Shown here in pieces: positions 14,665 through 27,909 of a stretch of 64,000 nt of DNA. Location of the stretch: the NCBI GenBank assembly GCA_016929595.1, contig JAFGIN010000212.1:1-64000 (forward strand), given 5' to 3'. Within the stretch, counting starts at the first letter, position 1. Each line of letters starts with the position of its first letter. The position numbers were made by a program, and so were the translations under genes. Under the pieces are notes generated by a model. It worked only from the letters and a program-made list of their open reading frames with translations, searched no databases and was not told where the DNA came from. Origin of the DNA: Chitinispirillaceae bacterium. GTDB taxonomy: Bacteria > Fibrobacterota > Chitinivibrionia > Chitinivibrionales > Chitinispirillaceae.

Positions 14665-15118
14665 GAAGTATTAAAGTTGACTGCCGGTGTATACTACTAT
14701 TAACTCTTAATAACTGTGCCGGCATCATCTTTCATCCATATGTACGCTGGAATAGGCATAATTTAACCCCTTAAAAAATGATAAATGGGTATATTAATCA
14801 TCATGGGATTAATATACCAAGATGTAATCACCCCGCGATGTGACGGCCGTTACTAATCGTCACTTTTTTTATTTTTATCTTTTACCATAGGTCCTGTAAC
14901 AGAAATGAATCACCATTGAACGCAATAAGTATAATTTCATACAAAATCTCTACAGATCAGTATTTTTATTACTAAGGATAGAACGTGCTGGAAGGTTTTA
15001 ACCCCAATAAACATACAGATTCAAATTTTATTTTCGGACTATTTTCGATATTTGAGACAGGAACGAATTTCCTATGCATAAAACCTTCCTGAAAAATCGA
15101 TCAGACAGAGGTAAGATC
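14665..15118. other. 454-base intergenic region
   Basis: Holds a perfect 12-base inverted repeat at 14788-14818, listed separately, and the upstream region of the fibro-slime gene. An in-frame ATG at 15074 exists for that gene but lacks a ribosome binding site. Nothing else is recognised. Confidence 0.4.
14788..14818. repeat. Perfect 12-bp inverted repeat
   Basis: GGTATATTAATC at 14788-14799 is mirrored by GATTAATATACC at 14807-14818 with a 7-base loop. No T-run follows on either strand, so a terminator is unlikely. It could be an operator for the fibro-slime gene or a simple hairpin. Confidence 0.5.
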
Positions 15119-17326
15119 ATGAAAAAAGATCTATTTTTACGAATTTTCTATACTACACTATTAATTTCACCTCTCTTTTTCCTATTTCTAAGCAGCGAAA
15201 GTGCAGCTCAAAATTTCCCGGATACGCTGGACATGGATGTCACCTTTTATGATTTTCATCCGGATAAGAGTAATCCGGAGTTCGAGCCAGACCACGAGGG
15301 CGGATTACGTCGCGACATGGTGTCTTCAACCCTTTCACCGGACAGAAAGCCTCTAAAAGGACCAGCTCCATTTTTCAGCCACTATATAAACAAATGGTTC
15401 AAACCGTGGACTCCGGGAGATTTTACACGGCCGGTTTATACAGATAGAAACGGCACATTTGGAGGAATTGACACGGTTGACCATGATACATCATTCAAAA
15501 ACATTGTCATTCAAAAAACTTTGCCGTTTATCCATAAAGGAAATGGCATATACCTGTTTGAACGATCTGGACAAAACGGAACGGAAGAGTTTTTCTGGAT
15601 AGATAAAGACGGATTCGGAATAGAACCGGCAAACAAAAATCACAACTATTCATTCACCATGGAACTTCATACTGTATTCACTTATAAAAGCGGCCTCACC
15701 TTTGAATTTCTCGGTGATGATGATGTATGGGCATTCATTAATGGTAAACTTGCAATGGATCTTGGGGGAATGCATCAGGCGGAAGCAGGCTCAATCCATC
15801 TTGACAATAGGGCTTCCGAACTTGGCCTTGAGGCAGGAAAACAGTACACATTTGATTTCTTCTATGCCGAACGTCACACACACAACAGTAGAATCAAGAT
15901 CACCACGAATCTCTTTACACCTACATCGATACTGCGGCTCTACGAAAGGCCGGGGGCACCTGATATAAACGGAAACACCCCATTGAAAGCTCTTGATACC
16001 ATTCCGGCAGGATCATCCTATACCATTTATGCACACGCATTTGACAGTATCAGATGGAGACCGGAATGGGACAGCCACGTCACCTGGCAAATTGATGACC
16101 CGCAGCGTAAAGTAACCATCACTTCTCAGAATGAAGGTATCCTCTCTATTTTGCCAAACGGAAGCTCTGGCAGTATCACGATCACTGCCAGATTTATAAA
16201 CCCTGATATCCCGAATGCTGAGCCGGTTTTCACATCATTACAGCTTTTTATCAACTCTGGGAAGAATGATCCGGTATCACTTAAACCGCTATCTGCAGTT
16301 ACCAGAGACAGTGATGGAAACGGGTATATAGACAGAATAGAATTAAAATATGACACAACAATGACGCTCATCAAAAAACCGGAAGAAAATATTACTGTAA
16401 AAAGTAATGGCATTACCTTTAAGGTTGATAGCATATATTCTGAAAACGGAACAGCATCCGGAAAAACATTTTATCTTATTCTTGCAGAACAGCGTGGAAA
16501 AGAACTTCAGACAGACTGGACTCCATCACTGACAATTGGTGCATTTGAAAATATCAATTCTGTTACTACTGTTCCAGTCTCAGACGGAGCTGGTCCGGTT
16601 GCAGATAAGGTATATTACTACCCGGGAAGCACAAACTCAGCCGATACTCTGAGAGTTATCATCAGCGAGCTGATCAAATGGCCTCCGAATCCGGATGTTA
16701 ATCAGATTTTCAGGTATTTTCAGGGTACAACGCCCAGAAGCAATGCATTTACATCAATGACTGTTGTTGATGATTCAACTGCCACACTGATTGTATCTTC
16801 AACTATAGACATAAATGTTCTAAAGGACAGCATTCAATTGACATCATCGGGAGGTGTTACTGACCTTCTGCTCACGAAACCTCATCAAAACGGGCGTAAA
16901 GCACCAATACAGTGGGGAACACTATCAATTACCTATTCACCAAGCTCAAATCCGTTTTCTCCAGATACGCCCATACCTCTTACTATACGTGACTATTACA
17001 AAAACGTACTCGACAAAACAGATAAGAATGCTGCAACCGGAGTCGTCGTAGGAGTCCATGTGAAAGGGAAACCACTTATGGTACTGCCCGGTAGTAGGGA
17101 CAGCTCATATGGTAAGGTTTACATCTATGATCCGACAGGTAATCTTATCAACCAGCTGAGTTTATACAAAGCCAAAGGCAGCAATGATTATGGAATCTAC
17201 TGGAATGGCAAAAATAAAAAAGGACGGGTAGCAGGGAGAGGCAGCGCCTATCTGTTTGTTGTCCTGACAACAGATGCTGATCGAGTGACAAGGAAGGGGA
17301 GATTTAAAGTGGGGATCAAATTCTGA
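15119..17326 (+). CDS. Fibro-slime domain surface protein
   Basis: A 735-aa exported protein. After the signal peptide (about 1-30) is a fibro-slime/PA14-like domain (about 35-265) with LTFEFLGDDDVWAFINGKLA, MDLGGMHQAEAGSIHLD and YTFDFFYAERHTHNSRIKI. This domain is characteristic of Fibrobacter outer-surface proteins linked to adhesion to cellulose. Ig-like beta regions follow. The C-terminal 90 residues form a FlgD-Ig-like tail (VYIYDPTGNLINQL, then GIYWNGKNKKGRVAGRGSAY) of the sort used for sorting or anchoring. The start at 15119 has AGAGG seven bases upstream and gives a proper signal peptide; the longer frame from 15074 does not. Probably a substrate-binding surface protein. Confidence 0.82.
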   Translation: MKKDLFLRIFYTTLLISPLFFLFLSSESAAQNFPDTLDMDVTFYDFHPDKSNPEFEPDHEGGLRRDMVSSTLSPDRKPLKGPAPFFSHYINKWFKPWTPGDFTRPVYTDRNGTFGGIDTVDHDTSFKNIVIQKTLPFIHKGNGIYLFERSGQNGTEEFFWIDKDGFGIEPANKNHNYSFTMELHTVFTYKSGLTFEFLGDDDVWAFINGKLAMDLGGMHQAEAGSIHLDNRASELGLEAGKQYTFDFFYAERHTHNSRIKITTNLFTPTSILRLYERPGAPDINGNTPLKALDTIPAGSSYTIYAHAFDSIRWRPEWDSHVTWQIDDPQRKVTITSQNEGILSILPNGSSGSITITARFINPDIPNAEPVFTSLQLFINSGKNDPVSLKPLSAVTRDSDGNGYIDRIELKYDTTMTLIKKPEENITVKSNGITFKVDSIYSENGTASGKTFYLILAEQRGKELQTDWTPSLTIGAFENINSVTTVPVSDGAGPVADKVYYYPGSTNSADTLRVIISELIKWPPNPDVNQIFRYFQGTTPRSNAFTSMTVVDDSTATLIVSSTIDINVLKDSIQLTSSGGVTDLLLTKPHQNGRKAPIQWGTLSITYSPSSNPFSPDTPIPLTIRDYYKNVLDKTDKNAATGVVVGVHVKGKPLMVLPGSRDSSYGKVYIYDPTGNLINQLSLYKAKGSNDYGIYWNGKNKKGRVAGRGSAYLFVVLTTDADRVTRKGRFKVGIKF

Positions 17327-17568
17327 TTCCAAATCATTGTTCACTCCCCCGCCGGGCTCAATGACGCCCATTGATTAAACTTTCCAGGTGCAAAACCGGG
17401 GCTTCGGGGCCCTCAGCCACCGGTGACCGGAAAATGTCTGATTGATCTTGTCGAAATGCTCTCGAACGGTGGCTGAAGCTCTCGAAACCACCTTCCGAAA
17501 TTCAGAAAAAAAGTCCGCGCTCTATATGGATGATCCCGTAAGAGCTGGCAGGCGATATTTTCTGATGT

Positions 17569-18919: not shown

Positions 18920-19858
18920 CTACAATGCAGCATCAACAAATTGAGTAACTCTTTCAGCATCAGCAGGAAAAACTTTTCCATGCAGATTCCTACATAATGA
19001 CTGCATTTGAATGGGAATACAAAACTGCTGTGTTTTACGGCGATATCTAAAACTTTTCCGATCCACCATTTCAGGCAAAATACCATTCTCAAATAACAGC
19101 TGCGCGCTCTCTCTTACTTTATAACAGGGATTGATGCAATAGCTTATCCCAGCCTTTTTGTATTTACGTATAATAACATCCAGATTTTCCCTGTATTGCA
19201 TCTGCCATGGATATGAACCGGATTCCTCACTCGATCCATCAGAAACGAAACGTATATAATGCTTTTTACAATATTCAATCGTCAGTTTATGCATTGCGAC
19301 AGTACACGCAGGACATAGTGAAACCCGAAGGAAATCGTTATGAGTAATAAATTTCTGATAAAGTCCAAAATAGATTTCGTTTCGGATAGTCTCCAATGAC
19401 ACAATCGTATGTACAAAACGATCTTTTCCGAAGCGTTTTTGTAAAAATCCGACATTTACACATGTGCTTCGCGGACTGGATCTTATCATCCCAAACGTAA
19501 GATTTTCATACGAAGATGCAAACGTCAGAAGATGGACCCGCCGGTATCGGCTGGCCATATATGCAGCTGTTAAGGTGGAATCGGTCCCTCCAGAATACCG
19601 GATACATATTTCTTCGTCAGAGCAGGAATCTGCCAGTATCTGAAAACTACTTTTTGCAGTAGAGACAGTTGAATATTCAGCTTTCTCTGCTGTTACTCCA
19701 TGCCAAATAATACTTCGTCTTCTATTCAGGGATCTTTTCGAGAATTTTATGACAATATATGGCAGAGTCAACCAGAAGATGAAAAAGGACCGCACGGAAA
19801 GACGCTGCGGAAGAAGATTAAACAAGTTGATTATTACTGTTTCGATTGCTTTACGCAT
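18920..19858 (-). CDS. PP-loop (asparagine-synthase/QueC-like) ATPase with CxxC motifs
   Basis: A 312-aa protein with a PP-loop pyrophosphatase motif at residues 89-95 (YSGGTDST), preceded by beta strand EICIR, as in enzymes that adenylate a substrate before amide formation or sulfur/nitrogen transfer. Two cysteine pairs follow: LCPACTVAMH (C182, C185) and CINPC (C241, C245). These could hold zinc or an Fe-S cluster, as in QueC- or TtcA-like enzymes. It lacks the glutaminase domain of asparagine synthetase. The ATG at 19858 overlaps the LarA-like gene by 8 bases. It is last in the leftward operon; I infer a ligase or thiolation-type step of its pathway. Confidence 0.65.
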   Translation of the reverse strand: MRKAIETVIINLFNLLPQRLSVRSFFIFWLTLPYIVIKFSKRSLNRRRSIIWHGVTAEKAEYSTVSTAKSSFQILADSCSDEEICIRYSGGTDSTLTAAYMASRYRRVHLLTFASSYENLTFGMIRSSPRSTCVNVGFLQKRFGKDRFVHTIVSLETIRNEIYFGLYQKFITHNDFLRVSLCPACTVAMHKLTIEYCKKHYIRFVSDGSSEESGSYPWQMQYRENLDVIIRKYKKAGISYCINPCYKVRESAQLLFENGILPEMVDRKSFRYRRKTQQFCIPIQMQSLCRNLHGKVFPADAERVTQFVDAAL

Positions 19859-21104
19859 ATACCTGTTTTTCTCTGGTTTTTGGATTAATGACCAGATTGG
19901 ACGAGTCGGGCACCAGAAACACATCGGCACCAGTATCTGTTTTCTTTAATATCAGATCTTCAAGATGACCCATGGATGAAATCAGGTCAAGATTATATTT
20001 CGTACCGATTGCCTCTTCCCATGAAGTAAGAAACGATACCTTTGCACCTGCCATATTTCTAATCATTAAAAGAGCGCTGTGCATTCCGATCTCGATCTGC
20101 TCAGGTCTTATGTTATTCAAAACATTCTCACGATCTATCAGGCAGTCTGCAAGACACTGATTACCAATCAGGTTTGAAAATTCACCTATAATAACCATCA
20201 TTCCGCCAGGATTTACAAGTTTTGAAGCTACGGAAATACACCGTTGCCCGCTGTAGAGACTGTCATCGCAGGGAGCACCTCCGCATGAAGCGATCACCAG
20301 ATCTGCGCATTTACCTACAGTTATACCATTGCATTTGATGATGCAGTCAATCGCATTATCATATGAACACGGTAAATCGCCATAAAAAATTCCCGCCAGA
20401 GTCCCCTCAGCCGAGCGTACCGTTTGTATAGCATAATCGATTTTTACCAATCGTAAAGCTTCCATCATCTGTTCATGAACCGGATTATCAATCTGGCAGC
20501 AAAGATCAGCTCCGGAAGATCTTATCTGACTGTGATTGGCTCTGATTGTTTCATAGTCTGCTATTCCGGGCAATATTATTTTCGGGCCACCTGTAAAACC
20601 TGCAAAAGCATGTGGTGCAACTGACCCAAGGGCAATAATAAAATCGGCACTGGCAACAGTACTATTAATCCTGAGTACTTGTCCCGATAACAATGCACCT
20701 GCCGGTGAGAGTTGTGCCTGGTTATGGCAGTCATGCTCAACCAGTGTAACCCGCTTCAGGACTTCTTCACTGTATAACTTTTTGTGATCAGGTAGGGAGT
20801 GTGCTGGATGTGTTCCATAAGCGGGGACAAGAAAAATGTTATTTACAGATTGAGATTCGAGAACATCAATCATTGCATTCAATAACAGGGGATATTCAGG
20901 ATTTTCCCTTGTTCTGTCTTCAGTAATAATGGCGACCTTGTGTATGTTCCTCGAAGCAATCTTTTGAGCAAGTTTTTTACAGATTGTTTCAACATGCTCC
21001 GACACATCACATATTACTGATTCTTTGCGCGGAGCAATGGTAGTAACTTTTCTGATAATATCATCCCGCAATATTATATTGCCTTTTCCCCATGCTATCT
21101 CCAT
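19851..21104 (-). CDS. LarA-family nickel-pincer-nucleotide racemase/epimerase
   Basis: A 417-aa member of the lactate racemase LarA family. Every cofactor and acid-base residue of Lactobacillus plantarum LarA appears at a constant offset of nine: D63 and R66 (EDRTR), H99 (GTHPAH), H165 and K175 (APHAFAGFTGGPK, the Lys that carries the nickel pincer) and H191 (ANHSQ). The substrate region differs: the LarA Tyr-Gln-x-x-Lys is Tyr-Ser-x-x-Arg-like here (SLYSGQR). I infer an active Ni-dependent racemase or epimerase of a different 2-hydroxy acid. The cofactor genes larB, larC and larE are not in the window. It overlaps both neighbours (10 and 8 bases). Confidence 0.82.
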   Translation of the reverse strand: MEIAWGKGNIILRDDIIRKVTTIAPRKESVICDVSEHVETICKKLAQKIASRNIHKVAIITEDRTRENPEYPLLLNAMIDVLESQSVNNIFLVPAYGTHPAHSLPDHKKLYSEEVLKRVTLVEHDCHNQAQLSPAGALLSGQVLRINSTVASADFIIALGSVAPHAFAGFTGGPKIILPGIADYETIRANHSQIRSSGADLCCQIDNPVHEQMMEALRLVKIDYAIQTVRSAEGTLAGIFYGDLPCSYDNAIDCIIKCNGITVGKCADLVIASCGGAPCDDSLYSGQRCISVASKLVNPGGMMVIIGEFSNLIGNQCLADCLIDRENVLNNIRPEQIEIGMHSALLMIRNMAGAKVSFLTSWEEAIGTKYNLDLISSMGHLEDLILKKTDTGADVFLVPDSSNLVINPKTREKQVYA

Positions 21105-22144
21105 GCGATCCCCTGACTAATAAACGAAGTTTTCAAAATCATTTTAATCATTGTATGAAATGATATCCCATGTAGTTTGCAACAGGTTGCGAGGGTCTTT
21201 TCCGGATGAAGTGTAGCATCAAGATTATAATCAATCAGATAAAATGCGCCACTCATATCTTGTCTTATGTCAAATACTGCATAGTCTGCGGGAGAAAAAA
21301 GTGAATAGACAAGGTCGCATTGTTTTTTGAGCATTTCAAATTCGGGAGACCAAAAATCCCGTTTTTCTTTTTTAAACATTCTTTGTACTTTTGCGGTGTA
21401 ATGGAAAAAGTCTGAGCCCAGAGAAGTTCCATCATCATGAGTATCCTCTATCATACCTCGCCACAAATCATTTCCATTTCCAACATAGCAAACTTTGAAT
21501 TCCTTACCGGTAATAAATTGCTCCACAATAACCGGATAACCAAGGTCATTGAGTACATAACTCACATACTCTTCCAGCGATGTCTTCGTAAACACGACAG
21601 CATCTTCATGGATTCCAACTGAAGTTCCTTCACAGGATGGTTTTACAATCAATGGGAATGGAGGAAACTGCTGGTAAAGCATAGTATCATTCTGTATGTA
21701 AACCCATGCAGGAGTACTGATTGACCATTTATCAAGCATAGCTTTGAGCAGTTGCTTATTCTGACCCGTAATCTTTGCATAGGGATCCGGACCCGAGTAA
21801 GGCTTATTCACTAATTCGCAAGCCATTGCTCCCAACGCCTGTCTGTAGCGGGATCTGAACCCGACCGAAAGAGTCACTATAAAATCAATTTGAGACTTCA
21901 TCTGATCACTCAGAGCAACCAGATCACAAGGTGTACCAATTCTTGTTGTTGAGAATCCGGCTTCTTGTATAGCCTGTTCAATAGCGGCGAGTTCATGCTC
22001 TTCCCGCCAGTGATCCAGCACCTCCAGTGGAAGGCCCATCTTTCTGGCATCTTCAATGGTTTCATAAAGAATGCCTATTGTCTCTATTCTAACGGGAGTA
22101 TTACACCCGATATTTTTCAGTTTTATCATAGGTAACTCGCTCAT
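21095..22144 (-). CDS. D-alanine-D-alanine ligase-like ATP-grasp enzyme
   Basis: A 349-aa ATP-grasp ligase. Motifs: LVNKPYSGPDPYAKITGQNKQLLKAML, the glycine-rich loop IVKPSCEGTSVGI, the nucleotide-binding VIVEQFITGKEFKV, and the metal-binding end FDIRQDMSGAFYLIDYNLDATLHP. In true Ddl proteins the last segment reads E-I-N-x-x-P-G; here it is D-Y-N-L-D-A-T. It therefore probably joins two amino-acid-like or carboxylate substrates through an acyl phosphate, but not necessarily two D-Ala. The start overlaps the end of the VanW gene by 44 bases and the stop overlaps the LarA-like gene by 10, which shows tight coupling. A second ATG at 22129 is possible. Confidence 0.75.
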   Translation of the reverse strand: MSELPMIKLKNIGCNTPVRIETIGILYETIEDARKMGLPLEVLDHWREEHELAAIEQAIQEAGFSTTRIGTPCDLVALSDQMKSQIDFIVTLSVGFRSRYRQALGAMACELVNKPYSGPDPYAKITGQNKQLLKAMLDKWSISTPAWVYIQNDTMLYQQFPPFPLIVKPSCEGTSVGIHEDAVVFTKTSLEEYVSYVLNDLGYPVIVEQFITGKEFKVCYVGNGNDLWRGMIEDTHDDGTSLGSDFFHYTAKVQRMFKKEKRDFWSPEFEMLKKQCDLVYSLFSPADYAVFDIRQDMSGAFYLIDYNLDATLHPEKTLATCCKLHGISFHTMIKMILKTSFISQGIAWR

Positions 22145-22856
22145 GCCCTTTACTATCTATTGAGTACCTTCTTGTTCTGACCATTTTATCAGAGTTATCT
22201 TTGTTATCACGATGTCTGTTCTGAAATAACTCAGACTCTATTCTGGCAGTACCAGTATCAGCAGTAACGGGAATAAGTATGCGGCAGGTCAAATTCATAA
22301 GATCAGTATTCATATTGATTCTTATCACAACATTGTAATTATTACAATTCTGGAACATGAGATTTTTTCTTAGAAACACGTATACGGCATCTCTTCCCAG
22401 ATCGATCATTCTGGCCTCACCCCAGATATCTCTGCTGTGAGAGTGTTTTTCGACGATTTTTAAATTCCCGACTAAAGCAGTATTAAAAAGAACAGTCGAA
22501 ACCTGACATATGCCACCACCAAAACCCACCCCTAACTCTCCACGGATAATTACCGGGCCGGTTTTGAATCCGCGCATGTCAGTTGGTTCACCAATCAGGT
22601 GCTCAAGTGAAAAAACAGAACCAGGCCGCAAAATAGTTCCATCAATCATATCGCAACAGAGTTTCATATTATGGATACGATGAGCGTTTTGACCACCTAA
22701 TCCGGGCCTTATTTTAACAGGTAGAGAAAATTGTACACCCATTTTGGGGCACATTGCAACTTCGACGGAAGAACCTTTCTTTGCAATATGTTTCATGTAC
22801 CCTTTTAAAAACAGTAGAGTATTCCTTCTAATTGTCCGAATTTTTTTAAATTTCAT
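22101..22856 (-). CDS. VanW family protein
   Basis: A 251-aa protein with the VanW signature at about residues 77-130: LRPGSVFSLEHLIGEPT, GFKTGPVIIRGE, and GVGFGGGICQVSTVLFNTAL with its invariant Cys. VanW was first seen in vancomycin-resistance clusters, has no settled function, and is common in cell-wall contexts. There is no signal peptide and no peptidoglycan-binding or G5 domain, unlike the larger Gram-positive relatives. Its position between a radical SAM aminomutase-like gene (15 bases) and a Ddl-like gene (overlapping) suggests a role with a peptide or amino-acid substrate. Confidence 0.8.
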   Translation of the reverse strand: MKFKKIRTIRRNTLLFLKGYMKHIAKKGSSVEVAMCPKMGVQFSLPVKIRPGLGGQNAHRIHNMKLCCDMIDGTILRPGSVFSLEHLIGEPTDMRGFKTGPVIIRGELGVGFGGGICQVSTVLFNTALVGNLKIVEKHSHSRDIWGEARMIDLGRDAVYVFLRKNLMFQNCNNYNVVIRINMNTDLMNLTCRILIPVTADTGTARIESELFQNRHRDNKDNSDKMVRTRRYSIDSKGHERVTYDKTEKYRV

Positions 22857-22871
22857 TGAAGCGGTTTGCCT

Positions 22872-24023
22872 TCAGACGACATCAGGATAATCAACCCAGA
22901 CGCCACGCCAGTTACGAAATGTAATATACGGTTTTCCGTCCTGATCCTGCAGATATCTGAATTCCGCAGTTCCATTTTCATCAAAAGGGATATCCTGCTT
23001 TCCGCTCTGATGAAACAGTGTATAGCGAGGCATCGCTGGTCCAGGAATTCTTCTCCGGAGATAATTCAGTAAAGAAGCGCCCTCCGATACAGTTGTCCCC
23101 AATTGATCTCTGCAAATCACATAAGGAGCGAAATGAAACATATAATAAGGGAAAATACCTCTTTGGTACAATTCAAGGAACAGGGCCTCAAGCTCTTCAA
23201 TACCATTGTTTACACCCTTTAGAAGGGGTGCCCGCGAAAGAAACATCGGGTTATAATTGTTAAGAGAAAACAGATCCAGGATTTCATCAACCTGCGGAGT
23301 CAACTCCTTATGTGAACTGAAATGCACTTCTATTGCATTCACATCGAATTTCTTTAATATCCGGACCAGCTCCGTATCGATCCTGAAAGGACAATAGGTA
23401 AAAGCCCGCGTATTTATCCTGATAAACCGTATTGATGGAATTGATCGTAGGTCTTGAAGTATCTCCGAGAGTTCCTCATTAGAAAGGATCAGCGGATCTC
23501 CTCCACTTATGAGAATCTCATAGATGTCACTATGCTCCTTTAAATACGAAAGTATCTGAGGCCACACTGATTTATAGTGAATCTGATTATTCTTATTATT
23601 ATCAATTGTACGATGTGCACAGTAACAATAGGTACAATAGCTGAAACAGGTATCTGTAATTCTAATCAACGCCCTCCCGGGATACTTCTGATGCAGAATT
23701 TCATAATGAATTTCTTCTGGTACTTCCCAATTACTATCAGGCAGAACCGGGATAGTATAATCACAGTCTTCACAATGCAACTGACGCCAGATCGGATCGT
23801 TCGGTAAAGGATTGCCGTAATCATCCAGTCCGACGCACGCCAGTGTATAGGGAGTGACAAAAAACCTGTAACTATCAATATGCTTTTCAATTTTTTCAAG
23901 CCGATCCTGTGGCAGTGAAGGAAAAAACCGCCTAATATCCTGCACAGATCTGCATCCATTACTTAACTGCCAGTGCCAGTCCCGCCATTGTCTTTCATTG
24001 ATTGAACAAAATAGTGAATTCAT
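22872..24023 (-). CDS. Lysine-2,3-aminomutase-like radical SAM enzyme
   Basis: A 383-aa protein of the KamA/EpmB family. It has the radical SAM cluster CFSYCTYC (C126, C130, C133), SGGDPLILS, the RINTRA segment, and a C-terminal region matching where KamA binds PLP (MPRYTLFHQSGKQDIPFD, candidate PLP lysine K342). The usual PGGxGK is degenerate. By hand alignment the two aspartates that hold the lysine side chain in clostridial KamA are missing (QCD is HFA; VDAPGG is LFHQSG). I therefore expect a 2,3-amino shift on another amino acid, or altered chemistry. It is first of the five core genes and starts 24 bases after the SH3 gene. Confidence 0.75.
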   Translation of the reverse strand: MNSLFCSINERQWRDWHWQLSNGCRSVQDIRRFFPSLPQDRLEKIEKHIDSYRFFVTPYTLACVGLDDYGNPLPNDPIWRQLHCEDCDYTIPVLPDSNWEVPEEIHYEILHQKYPGRALIRITDTCFSYCTYCYCAHRTIDNNKNNQIHYKSVWPQILSYLKEHSDIYEILISGGDPLILSNEELSEILQDLRSIPSIRFIRINTRAFTYCPFRIDTELVRILKKFDVNAIEVHFSSHKELTPQVDEILDLFSLNNYNPMFLSRAPLLKGVNNGIEELEALFLELYQRGIFPYYMFHFAPYVICRDQLGTTVSEGASLLNYLRRRIPGPAMPRYTLFHQSGKQDIPFDENGTAEFRYLQDQDGKPYITFRNWRGVWVDYPDVV

Positions 24024-24047: not shown

Positions 24048-25004
24048 TCAGTTTTTAGGTTTATATGAATAATATTTCTGTTTCAAACTATCTTCTATAC
24101 TGGAGATTATTCTGTATCTGTGCATTGGATAGACATTCTCATTTTTACCAGTTAACTTCCATATACCATCAAGTATCTCTCTGATAGCGTTTTCATTATT
24201 ACCAAAAATACAGCTCATACGGTTAAAATTCTGAGGATTCTGAATTGCCAGTTGAATAAGAAATTTCTTGTTTTTCTTGAATTCTTCTGGAAGACAATCG
24301 AACACTGATGGACCATATTTAGTTATATCCAGAAACAATTTTTCTCTATTATTCACTTGCGACGCTACAGCCGCATAGATCTGCGTTGCATATGGCGAAC
24401 ATTGTACCTCATCTTCATAGTACGAGAGATAACTGAGCTTCGATAAAAATTCCGGTGAGAAAAGTATCTCTTTAAGATAAGGAAAGGGAGCCTTGTTCAT
24501 ACTATCCTTATTCTTTTCAATTTTACTGTAGAAAGAGTTATACAAAAGCACAGCGACTCTCTGCTCTGTAGTTACAGCAGTAATCAAAGACCTGTATTCT
24601 TCGAGAGTAAATGTTGTCATTTCCATTTCCAGTTCCTCCCAGGTGCTGTAACTGTACCTTTTATGAAACCATTCCATATCAGGGTTTGCATAGTAGGTTT
24701 CATATCCATCTTTCGGGAGATTTTTAAAATCAATCAATGCACCAAACGTCCAACCTGAAATATCTTTGCAGGCAATTTTATACCAGTAATCGGTTTTTTC
24801 TCCAATTTTATCTTTTCCCGCACTTCGTTCAGTTACTGTCACTTTCATCTTTTTGTAAAGAACCCCAACCTTATCACCATCTTTTGAGGGTGTAGTCCTC
24901 ACCGATACAAAATCATCATTCACCCATGCTTCTGCAGGAAGTTTTTCCTGAGCAGTTATGATAAAACATACTGAAAACAACAGTACCATATTTTTTAGGT
25001 TCAT
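24048..25004 (-). CDS. Exported SH3-domain protein
   Basis: A 318-aa protein with a signal peptide (about 1-23), then a bacterial SH3 domain (about 25-95: FVSVRTTPSKDGDKVGVLYKKM, then YWYKIACKDISGWTFGALIDF). Such domains bind cell-wall peptides. The remaining 220 residues are helical and unassigned. The start at 25004 has GGAG eight bases upstream and gives a good signal peptide; an earlier in-frame ATG at 25043 lies inside the previous gene. It is 4 bases from the ligase-like gene and 24 bases from the radical SAM gene, so it belongs to the same transcript. Confidence 0.65.
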   Translation of the reverse strand: MNLKNMVLLFSVCFIITAQEKLPAEAWVNDDFVSVRTTPSKDGDKVGVLYKKMKVTVTERSAGKDKIGEKTDYWYKIACKDISGWTFGALIDFKNLPKDGYETYYANPDMEWFHKRYSYSTWEELEMEMTTFTLEEYRSLITAVTTEQRVAVLLYNSFYSKIEKNKDSMNKAPFPYLKEILFSPEFLSKLSYLSYYEDEVQCSPYATQIYAAVASQVNNREKLFLDITKYGPSVFDCLPEEFKKNKKFLIQLAIQNPQNFNRMSCIFGNNENAIREILDGIWKLTGKNENVYPMHRYRIISSIEDSLKQKYYSYKPKN

Positions 25005-25008
25005 CTGT

Positions 25009-26715
25009 CTACTCCACCTTGAAAAGCTTTGGTCCGGTAACATTAATTATTTCGGAAGCAATCATTTTATTTCTGAAATCAGATTCATTTTTTACTCTCG
25101 GCTTACAATCTAACACTGATGACGCATACTCATAAGCTTTTTTATACTCTTTTCTTGAAAAATATATCTGTGCCAGTTTGGCGAGGGTGGTTAAGTGATA
25201 CGGGTAGCATTTTTCTATCTCCAGATATAATTTTTCCGCCTCTTCATGCATCTCTGAAAAGAAAAACATATGAGCCGAAATTTTCAGAGTATTCATTGAT
25301 TTGAAATTTTTTATGGACTTAAAAAGAGGGGATTTCATACGCCCAGTATCCTTATTTAGAAAGTATATATGTCCCAGTGCAAGATCTGCATCAAAATTCT
25401 GTGGGTTTATTGCAAGGGACTTCCTGATAAATGTTTCTCCTCTTTTAAGATCTTTTAAAGTAATCGCACCAATCCCTTTTCTATACCAGAAGTCTGATAC
25501 AACCAGATAACCGGCAAACAACGAACCTGAAAAAACCAAAACTATCAGTGAAAACAGTACGACTACTCTCTTTTTTGCCGCAAGTACCACAGTTTTGGCT
25601 GGCAAAGAAACTCCTAACAACAGAGCAAATAAAATCAGAGATGTCGAACAATTATGCATCACCGTATAGAAACTTTTGAAAACAAGAAACAGCAACGCAA
25701 TACCAGTATAATTATTAATTTTTTTTGCATGGAAAACAACTGATACTACAAACAGTATCGATACCAGTAATCCAGCGATGCCCGTTTCTACTCCGAAATT
25801 AAGAACAATATTGTGCGCATCAAGCACTGCGCCTACATTCTGCGCGAATGCAGTTTTTATCAAAGGAATATTGACAAAAAGAGCTTCGATAGAATCCAGA
25901 TAATAATGACCAATCTGGCGTATTCCAGTCCCAGTCAATAAATGATGCTTAAATGTAAAAGCCGATGAGATCCATACCAGTAATCGTCCTTTGAACTGTG
26001 ATGGAAAAAACCAAAGCGCCACCCCGGCTGACACCAGCAGGACGGCCCCAGCGACAATTTTCTTCTTTGTTATACAACAAATGAAAAAAATGCTCAGAAA
26101 CAGTAGCGTACCTTTATTTTCAGTTAACAGAACGGCTGTACTAATCAGACCAATTCCACAATAAACCAGTTTTTTGTATCTTTCCGATTCATCAACCAGC
26201 TTTAACCCTATAAGCAGTCCAACAGCAAGAAAAGTTGCCAGAAACTCAGCGTTCCCCATCGTTCCGATCACATTTTTTTCGCATGTCGAAGAGGGAAGTA
26301 CAGTAGAAATTTTTAGATCGAAAAATTGAAAGTATGCAAGCAATGACTCTGCTAACGCAATAAAAAATAATACAATCAGCAAGTATCTCTTTTCATCCGA
26401 TGTAAAATCGCAAACGGTTATACAGATTACTGCCGCTGACAAAAAGAGCATACATTGTGGTACACTGTTCAATGGAGCGTGAGAAAAAGCTACCGAACAC
26501 CAGGAGAGAAGAATCAAGCCAAAGCCTGTCAGAACAGCACCCCCCGATGGAACCATCAACGAGGGTTTAAATAAAAAGCTCATTGAGAGCATGCTTGCCG
26601 CAATAAACGTTACCAGGATTTTTGGACAGTGAAATGATTGACTGAAAAGAGGAATATAAATAACAAAAACTGAAACAATCAGTGCAATTTTGATCCAGAG
26701 AAAGGGTTTATTCAT
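25009..26715 (-). CDS. O-antigen ligase-like membrane protein with TPR tail
   Basis: A 568-aa protein with about 10-12 membrane helices in residues 1-400, then a soluble TPR region (about 410-550, with ALGHIYFLNKDTGRM and KLAQIYFSRKEYKKAYEYA). The central loop LLTGTGIRQIGHYYLDSIE followed by AHNIVLNFGVETGIAGLLVS is the Wzy/WaaL-type motif of O-antigen ligases and polymerases, which move lipid-linked polymers onto acceptors on the periplasmic side. Some homologues glycosylate pilins or other proteins instead. It overlaps the M23 gene by 8 bases. Confidence 0.72.
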   Translation of the reverse strand: MNKPFLWIKIALIVSVFVIYIPLFSQSFHCPKILVTFIAASMLSMSFLFKPSLMVPSGGAVLTGFGLILLSWCSVAFSHAPLNSVPQCMLFLSAAVICITVCDFTSDEKRYLLIVLFFIALAESLLAYFQFFDLKISTVLPSSTCEKNVIGTMGNAEFLATFLAVGLLIGLKLVDESERYKKLVYCGIGLISTAVLLTENKGTLLFLSIFFICCITKKKIVAGAVLLVSAGVALWFFPSQFKGRLLVWISSAFTFKHHLLTGTGIRQIGHYYLDSIEALFVNIPLIKTAFAQNVGAVLDAHNIVLNFGVETGIAGLLVSILFVVSVVFHAKKINNYTGIALLFLVFKSFYTVMHNCSTSLILFALLLGVSLPAKTVVLAAKKRVVVLFSLIVLVFSGSLFAGYLVVSDFWYRKGIGAITLKDLKRGETFIRKSLAINPQNFDADLALGHIYFLNKDTGRMKSPLFKSIKNFKSMNTLKISAHMFFFSEMHEEAEKLYLEIEKCYPYHLTTLAKLAQIYFSRKEYKKAYEYASSVLDCKPRVKNESDFRNKMIASEIINVTGPKLFKVE

Positions 26716-27589
26716 CAGATGAAAGATTATCCCTGAAAAAAAGTAATGGATCTATACAGTATTTTTTTAAAGCCTCCATTGTCATACTGTATGAACTGGC
26801 TGCCCCTTTATCATCATAGGATGTTCTGATTTCCAGGTGAACATGAGGGTGGCTATATCCACTTTGCTTAAGATCATTCTGATTAAAAATTCGACCGATC
26901 GGTGAATTATGATCAATATAGTCTCCTGCATTTACTTTGATTACTTTCAAATGTACATATTTTGAAAAGAGTGTCTCTCCGTTCTTTAATCTGTGGCAGA
27001 CAACAACATAACTGCTGAATCTATCGTTTGATGTAGAAATGACAACACCATTGCTGATTGGAAAGACCATTTCACCGGAACTCCCTTTCAAATCCACTCC
27101 GGCATGTTTATGTCCTTTTTTTTCTGAGGCTCTGTAGTCACCAAATTTTGATATCAGCCTGTTTTGTATCATCTTAAAAGAACTACGTCTGGTATCGTTA
27201 TAAGAAGTGTACCATTTTTCCGAAATGGAACTGGTATCCGCATTCATACCCTCAACCGTTATCTCAATACCCAGATTCGTTACAAACTTAATTTTGTCGC
27301 AACTATCCTGAAATGAACCAATTCTTGTGAAAACCCCTCCGCTATTGGTTTTGCTGGAAAAAACCGTCATTCCGCTCAGAGGTGAAAAATGGTAATCAGG
27401 TCCGGCAAGATGGAGTATCACCGCTGAATCCTGCATCATTTGTATAACTCCAACCATGGATCTCTTTTCAATTCCATTCAGTTGATAGGAGGATTTAACA
27501 ATTCTCTCCGAAGAGTTCACACATATACAAAAAAAAACAATAAAGATAGCTGGATGCTTATTCAAACGTATCAATAGACTTTCATTCAT
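26708..27589 (-). CDS. M23-family metallopeptidase (LytM-like)
   Basis: An exported protein of about 293 aa with a hydrophobic N-terminus. It has a C-terminal M23 domain (about 140-280) with intact zinc ligands: HAGVDLKG (HxxxD) and HPHVHLEIR (HxH). It also has the usual SNGVVISTS and GDYIDHNSPIGRI strands. M23 enzymes cut peptidoglycan cross-links or act as activators. The 130 residues before the domain are unassigned. ATG 27589 has GAG at good spacing; an in-frame ATG at 27613 is the alternative. It is the first gene of the eight-gene leftward run. Confidence 0.8.
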   Translation of the reverse strand: MNESLLIRLNKHPAIFIVFFCICVNSSERIVKSSYQLNGIEKRSMVGVIQMMQDSAVILHLAGPDYHFSPLSGMTVFSSKTNSGGVFTRIGSFQDSCDKIKFVTNLGIEITVEGMNADTSSISEKWYTSYNDTRRSSFKMIQNRLISKFGDYRASEKKGHKHAGVDLKGSSGEMVFPISNGVVISTSNDRFSSYVVVCHRLKNGETLFSKYVHLKVIKVNAGDYIDHNSPIGRIFNQNDLKQSGYSHPHVHLEIRTSYDDKGAASSYSMTMEALKKYCIDPLLFFRDNLSSDE

Positions 27590-27909
27590 AGAGCACTCAT
27601 AAAAAACATTCAATCGGATTCTATAATGAAATATACTGTCTTTACCACAGGTTTTCTACAGCTACGTTCATCGCTGGCGCTTCGCAGAAGTACCGAGTTG
27701 AACATATTGATTTGTATTTCTTCAGATGAGTATATTGGAATTAATGAATTTTTTCCGGTATTTTTTCAAATCGATTGGTTTAATATGCGACGTAAAACTA
27801 TACCGTACGAATTGACATACCTCACCTAAGACATTCAATAATCTCTTTTACGTCTGTTTTGATGAAACTAACATTACCTGTCACATTGTTTTCTACGAAA
27901 GGATGATCC
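27590..27909. other. 320-base divergent intergenic region
   Basis: Lies between the leftward M23 gene and the rightward tautomerase-like gene. It should hold the promoter of the eight-gene operon, but I see no clear -35/-10 pair. A 67-codon frame at 27626-27829 has neither a ribosome binding site nor protein-like composition. Confidence 0.4.

Follow-up and report, generated by a model that had tools for sequence, protein, structure and literature searches.

A five-gene run encoding KamA-like, VanW, ATP-grasp, LarA-family and PP-loop proteins in a Chitinispirillaceae bacterium, possibly an operon for a short pseudo-peptide

Gene organization

The window analyzed here is a 64,000-nucleotide stretch of contig JAFGIN010000212.1 of a Chitinispirillaceae bacterium, an anaerobe. 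In the list of its open reading frames (orfs), five consecutive leftward orfs with predicted products of 383, 251, 349, 417 and 336 aa fill positions 24023 to 18920. These genes, and three that lie immediately upstream of them, are as follows, with the basis of each assignment in parentheses.

22872..24023, minus strand: KamA-like radical SAM enzyme assigned to a divergent PboF-like subfamily, 383 aa (profile, alignment, tree)
22101..22856, minus strand: VanW-domain protein, 251 aa (profile, alignment, hydropathy scan)
21095..22144, minus strand: predicted ATP-grasp amino-acid ligase of the KamA-linked type, 349 aa; alternative start ATG 22129 (profile, BLAST)
19851..21104, minus strand: LarA-family nickel-pincer racemase/epimerase, 417 aa (profile, conserved residues)
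18920..19858, minus strand: PP-loop ATPase-like protein, 312 aa from the likely ATG at 19858 (336 aa from GTG) (motif)
24048..25043, minus strand: SH3_3-domain protein, possible upstream member of the five-gene transcription unit (profile; 24 bp gap)
25009..26715, minus strand: Wzy_C/O-antigen-ligase-like membrane protein with TPRs, possible upstream member (profile)
26708..27613, minus strand: M23 peptidase, possible first gene of the run (profile)

The KamA and VanW genes are separated by 15 bp, and overlaps are present at the VanW/ATP-grasp, ATP-grasp/LarA and LarA/PP-loop junctions, so that the compact leftward arrangement described in the earlier note (gaps of at most 15 bases and three overlaps) is borne out. 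At the last junction the genes overlap through ATGCGTAA, with 8 bases common to the PP-loop start and the LarA end; because of this overlap the ATG at 19858, rather than the GTG at 19930, is most likely the start of the PP-loop gene, giving a 312 aa product. The M23, Wzy_C/TPR and SH3_3 genes lie upstream of KamA in the same direction, with overlaps and the 24 bp gap, and since they are so tightly placed the transcription unit may hold eight genes. The Wzy_C/TPR protein gave no match among 40 relatives. A putative trpB-like gene, named from its sequence, lies 97 bp past the five-gene run, and there is no transporter gene inside the five-gene unit.

The GC contents of the genes (0.39–0.42, against a window mean of 0.407) do not support recent acquisition of foreign DNA. 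No antiphage family fits; the sole PADLOC match is of the radical SAM domain to viperins (E 1.5e-4) and is generic. Between the orf at 15074-17326 and the trpB-like gene, positions 17327-17568 contain inverted motifs (GGTGGCTGA / TCGAGAGC) with the look of a dispersed repeat.

The KamA-like protein and its closest relatives

In profile searches the first gene product matches the radical SAM/KamA model TIGR04368 at E 5.8e-53, its scores to KamA models lying far below their cut-offs, and it aligns with the lysine 2,3-aminomutase structure 2a5h at E 3e-41. The CxxxCxxC radical SAM motif is present, TDTCFSYCTYC aligning with TDMCSMYCRHC of 2a5h. It is not, however, a lysine 2,3-aminomutase (AblA): equivalents of the substrate-contacting D293, D330 and R134 are not kept (D293 is N, D330 is replaced (F/H), and the R134 region is changed), and the score is 167 against a cut-off of 525.

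In an alignment of about 40 relatives the window protein alone departs from the standard GK-I spacing, and it alone has an insert after the cluster cysteines. The lysine in HQSGKQDIP is shifted by a two-residue insert, and the other rows have an invariant GK-[IVT]; the PLP lysine is probably kept at this displaced position. Both indels recur in a homologue from Burkholderia cenocepacia (L180), in which TCNSYCQFCFEALRT and AKGKFTVP correspond to TCFSYCTYCYCAHRT and QSGKQDIP of the window protein, and the two form a clade with 99/100 support in the tree, both on long branches. By the insert after CxxxCxxC, the GKxx[IV]P motif and the clade with Burkholderia, the window protein belongs to a divergent, PboF-like subfamily; a scan of viral contigs with this subfamily gave no match.

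In Burkholderia the KamA gene is followed by an ATP-grasp gene (a LAL_C2 match), a 2OG-Fe dioxygenase gene and an MFS transporter gene, an arrangement that matches the pboF-G-H-I run in Pseudomonas syringae pv. phaseolicola (PMC8473136); it is by this gene order that the Burkholderia gene is provisionally equated with pboF. The Pbo cluster and the window each have a KamA-type radical SAM gene together with an ATP-grasp ligase gene, directly downstream in Pbo, within what is presumed to be an operon for a secondary metabolite (PMC8473136). An ATP-grasp of the L-amino-acid-ligase type, the dioxygenase, MFS transporters and NRPS/PKS parts are found only in Pbo, whereas VanW, LarA and PP-loop genes, of which none is seen in the available description of Pbo, are found in the window. 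The authors of the Pbo study suggest that its product is a secondary metabolite (PMC8473136).

The ATP-grasp ligase and recurrent KamA/ATP-grasp pairs

The third gene product matches Pfam Dala_Dala_lig_C (E 5e-13) and had been read as Ddl-like. Its best ATP-grasp matches are instead KamA-adjacent ligases (E 4e-28 to 1e-26), with which its N-terminal region also aligns, and the genome's true Ddl (L199, elsewhere at C27) gives no BLAST match at 1e-3. Judged by these comparisons, it is a ligase of the KamA-linked type and not Ddl kin.

KamA followed by two tandem ATP-grasp genes is seen on four contigs of the same phylum (L032, L033, L034 and L035) in differing gene surroundings. These ligases are of the window ligase's subfamily (25–27% identity over most of the length), but in these modules the KamA residues are the standard ones (GGGGK, VND/IND), there are two ligases instead of one, and VanW, LarA and PP-loop genes are absent. 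The set on these four contigs appears to be a portable and uncharacterised module. KamA and ATP-grasp genes also occur together on Bradyrhizobium and Thioflavicoccus plasmids, so that the KamA/ATP-grasp pair is a recurrent module. The Bradyrhizobium plasmid locus (L057:2087-6852) is an aminomutase-ligase cluster encoding a lysine 2,3-aminomutase, a gamma-glutamyltransferase, a 7TM protein and an ATP-grasp protein. In two contigs classed as viral (IMG/VR; L155:8001-10162 and L157:3181-5302) a KamA-type gene adjoins an ATP-grasp ligase gene.

The LarA-family enzyme

The LarA-family protein matches Lar_N (E 1e-38), NF052593 (E 8e-71) and structure 6d6z (E 3e-37). Along with that structure, its best-scoring characterised families are the malate racemases MAR1 and MAR2 (LarAH5/LarAH6), at half of the curated cut-off score, and MAR2 is its nearest characterised relative. 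As in MAR1 and MAR2, the NPN-binding and catalytic residues are retained: in the alignment these include the NPN-binding lysine K175, the nickel-ligand histidine H191 and the catalytic histidine pair H99 and H165, and D63 and R66 are also kept. Unlike the characterised LarA proteins, it reads YSGQR at the C-terminal YQxxK and lies in a biosynthetic-looking genomic context.

Most genomes of the phylum lack a strong LarA. Here LarB, LarC and LarE are all encoded elsewhere in the genome, and the window gene is the sole strong member of the LarA family, a second match being weak (34 bits in a 780-codon frame); because of this, the NPN cofactor is probably available and the window LarA probably its main client.

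The VanW protein

The second gene product matches PF04294 (E 8e-34) and is the only VanW protein of the genome. It retains C117 in GGGICQVST, H140 and R155-D156, of which C117 and H140 are the conserved Cys and His of the VanW L,D-transpeptidases. VanW had been taken as a family of unknown function; in 2024, however, the VanW proteins LdtCd4 and LdtCd5 of Clostridioides difficile were demonstrated to be L,D-transpeptidases, and it is for VanW proteins without this activity that a review gives roles as unknown. The window protein shares the VanW domain with its Cys and His but, unlike LdtCd4 and LdtCd5, has no evident PG4 domain or membrane anchor; its hydropathy, scanned by a simple method and not with a signal-peptide predictor, shows no hydrophobic segment of membrane length. 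A full-length relative (34%) is present in a Clostridia MAG (L064), unlinked to the other four genes.

The PP-loop protein

The fifth gene product has an SGGTDST motif, in agreement with SGGxDS(T/S), and matches QueC and Asn-synthase at E 0.002–0.01, with no family above cut-off. Of the CxxC pairs that had been reported in it, CPAC is a true one; CFWC lies in the longer GTG-start frame, in DNA overlapping LarA and ahead of the likely ATG start. It is not a missing LarE, as there is no TIGR00268 match and a full-scoring LarE is encoded elsewhere, at C34. By analogy with its superfamily, the protein may adenylate a substrate for amide or sulfur transfer.

One distant relative was found, a Vibrio plasmid protein (27.5%). 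A profile that includes the Vibrio row matches structure 9kq6 ('asparagine synthetase domain-containing protein') at E 3e-74, a value that comes mostly from that row, and the window protein alone matches at E 0.005. An AlphaFold model from the single sequence has a pLDDT of 38. The Vibrio protein, itself close to 9kq6, is encoded in a Vibrio coralliilyticus plasmid operon (L054:8899-12777) together with a NUDIX/HAD fusion, a DUF6024 (aminotransferase-like) protein and an EamA transporter.

Occurrence of the gene set elsewhere

In a non-exhaustive search that covered 168 genomes of the phylum, the best 80 VanW loci, plasmids and viral contigs, the five-gene set was found nowhere else. None of the best 80 VanW loci listed has relatives of the other four genes. 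Among the 168 genomes, VanW relatives are present in four others, LarA relatives are unlinked to other cassette genes, and the PP-loop protein is seen only in the source genome, one marginal fragment aside; a genome scan with it for the same cassette gave nothing. In all of the loci examined, VanW, LarA and PP-loop relatives never adjoin KamA or ATP-grasp. As no second locus with the set was found, it is the overlap of the genes, and not comparative evidence, that argues for a joint function.

We found no described pathway in the literature that combines all five families, in agreement with the earlier note, although the KamA and ATP-grasp pair is already part of the published Pbo cluster. Of the two products that the note had suggested, the peptide or depsipeptide stands as the best inference, and the modified wall precursor has less in its favour, as the ligase is not Ddl kin and no anchor is evident in the VanW protein.

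Possible pathway and alternative explanations

The chance that the five genes form a small biosynthetic operon, with a short pseudo-peptide made non-ribosomally as its product, is in our estimation close to even. The synthesis of short peptides by ATP-grasp ligases is established, for example by MboC and MboD of mangotoxin, and a short peptide-type product is the best-supported part of the proposal, owing to the KamA-ligase pair and its kinship to peptide-type modules; it is the coupling of the genes that assigns the other three proteins to this pathway. We infer the substrates, the order of steps, the product and the joint action of all five genes as follows. A beta-amino acid would arise by migration of an amino group on the PboF-like radical SAM enzyme, which is not a lysine 2,3-aminomutase; with its nickel-pincer cofactor, the LarA-family enzyme would fix the configuration of a 2-hydroxy acid; the units would be linked by the ATP-grasp ligase via an acyl phosphate; an acid group would be adenylated and amidated (or thiolated) by the PP-loop enzyme; and the VanW cysteine could be an acyl carrier for transfer or release. 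Most likely, the product would be a short pseudo-peptide of the ATP-grasp type in which one residue comes from the aminomutase.

The operon might instead combine two or more unrelated functions, such as a KamA/ATP-grasp peptide module with separate roles for VanW, LarA and the PP-loop protein. This would agree with the separation of VanW and LarA relatives from KamA and the ligase in other genomes and with our finding neither the whole set nor a pairing of VanW or LarA with KamA or the ligase in the loci searched. We consider it rather unlikely, however, given that the four junctions consist of a 15 bp gap or overlaps, one of them a stop/start overlap, and that the genome, which retains LarB, LarC and LarE for NPN synthesis, has no other clear LarA. 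Somewhat less probable again is a modification of the envelope, in which the ligase and LarA would supply a precursor whose terminal residue is a D-hydroxy acid or an unusual amino acid, in the manner of van systems, for VanW to insert into peptidoglycan as an L,D-transpeptidase. The activities of LdtCd4 and LdtCd5, and the M23 peptidase and Wzy_C-type membrane protein encoded upstream in the same direction, would fit such a role, but the kinship of the ligase is not with Ddl, neither a signal peptide nor a membrane helix is evident in the VanW protein, LarA is nearest to a malate rather than a lactate racemase, and we recognised no further van gene in the neighbourhood examined; this reading would also leave KamA and the PP-loop protein unexplained.

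KamA enzymes make the osmolytes beta-lysine and beta-glutamate, and LarA-family malate racemases exist, so that one could picture a compatible-solute or catabolic operon, with the aminomutase supplying a beta-amino acid osmolyte or a fermentation and LarA racemising malate for catabolism. This we regard as very improbable: there is neither an acetyltransferase (AblB) nor a catabolic gene, and the substrate residues differ from those of lysine aminomutase and of standard KamA.

The proposal of a pseudo-peptide operon has a wider, and more doubtful, form, in which the locus would specify an undescribed natural-product or wall-conjugate pathway with a biosynthetic nickel-pincer stereochemical step, a cytoplasmic VanW acyl transferase, and a new aminomutase subfamily feeding an ATP-grasp ligase. 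If this is true, the nickel-pincer cofactor would gain a biosynthetic rather than a catabolic role, VanW proteins without a membrane anchor would acquire a function, and a substrate would be defined for a divergent KamA subfamily that is ligase-adjacent in Burkholderia and, by gene order, in Pbo.
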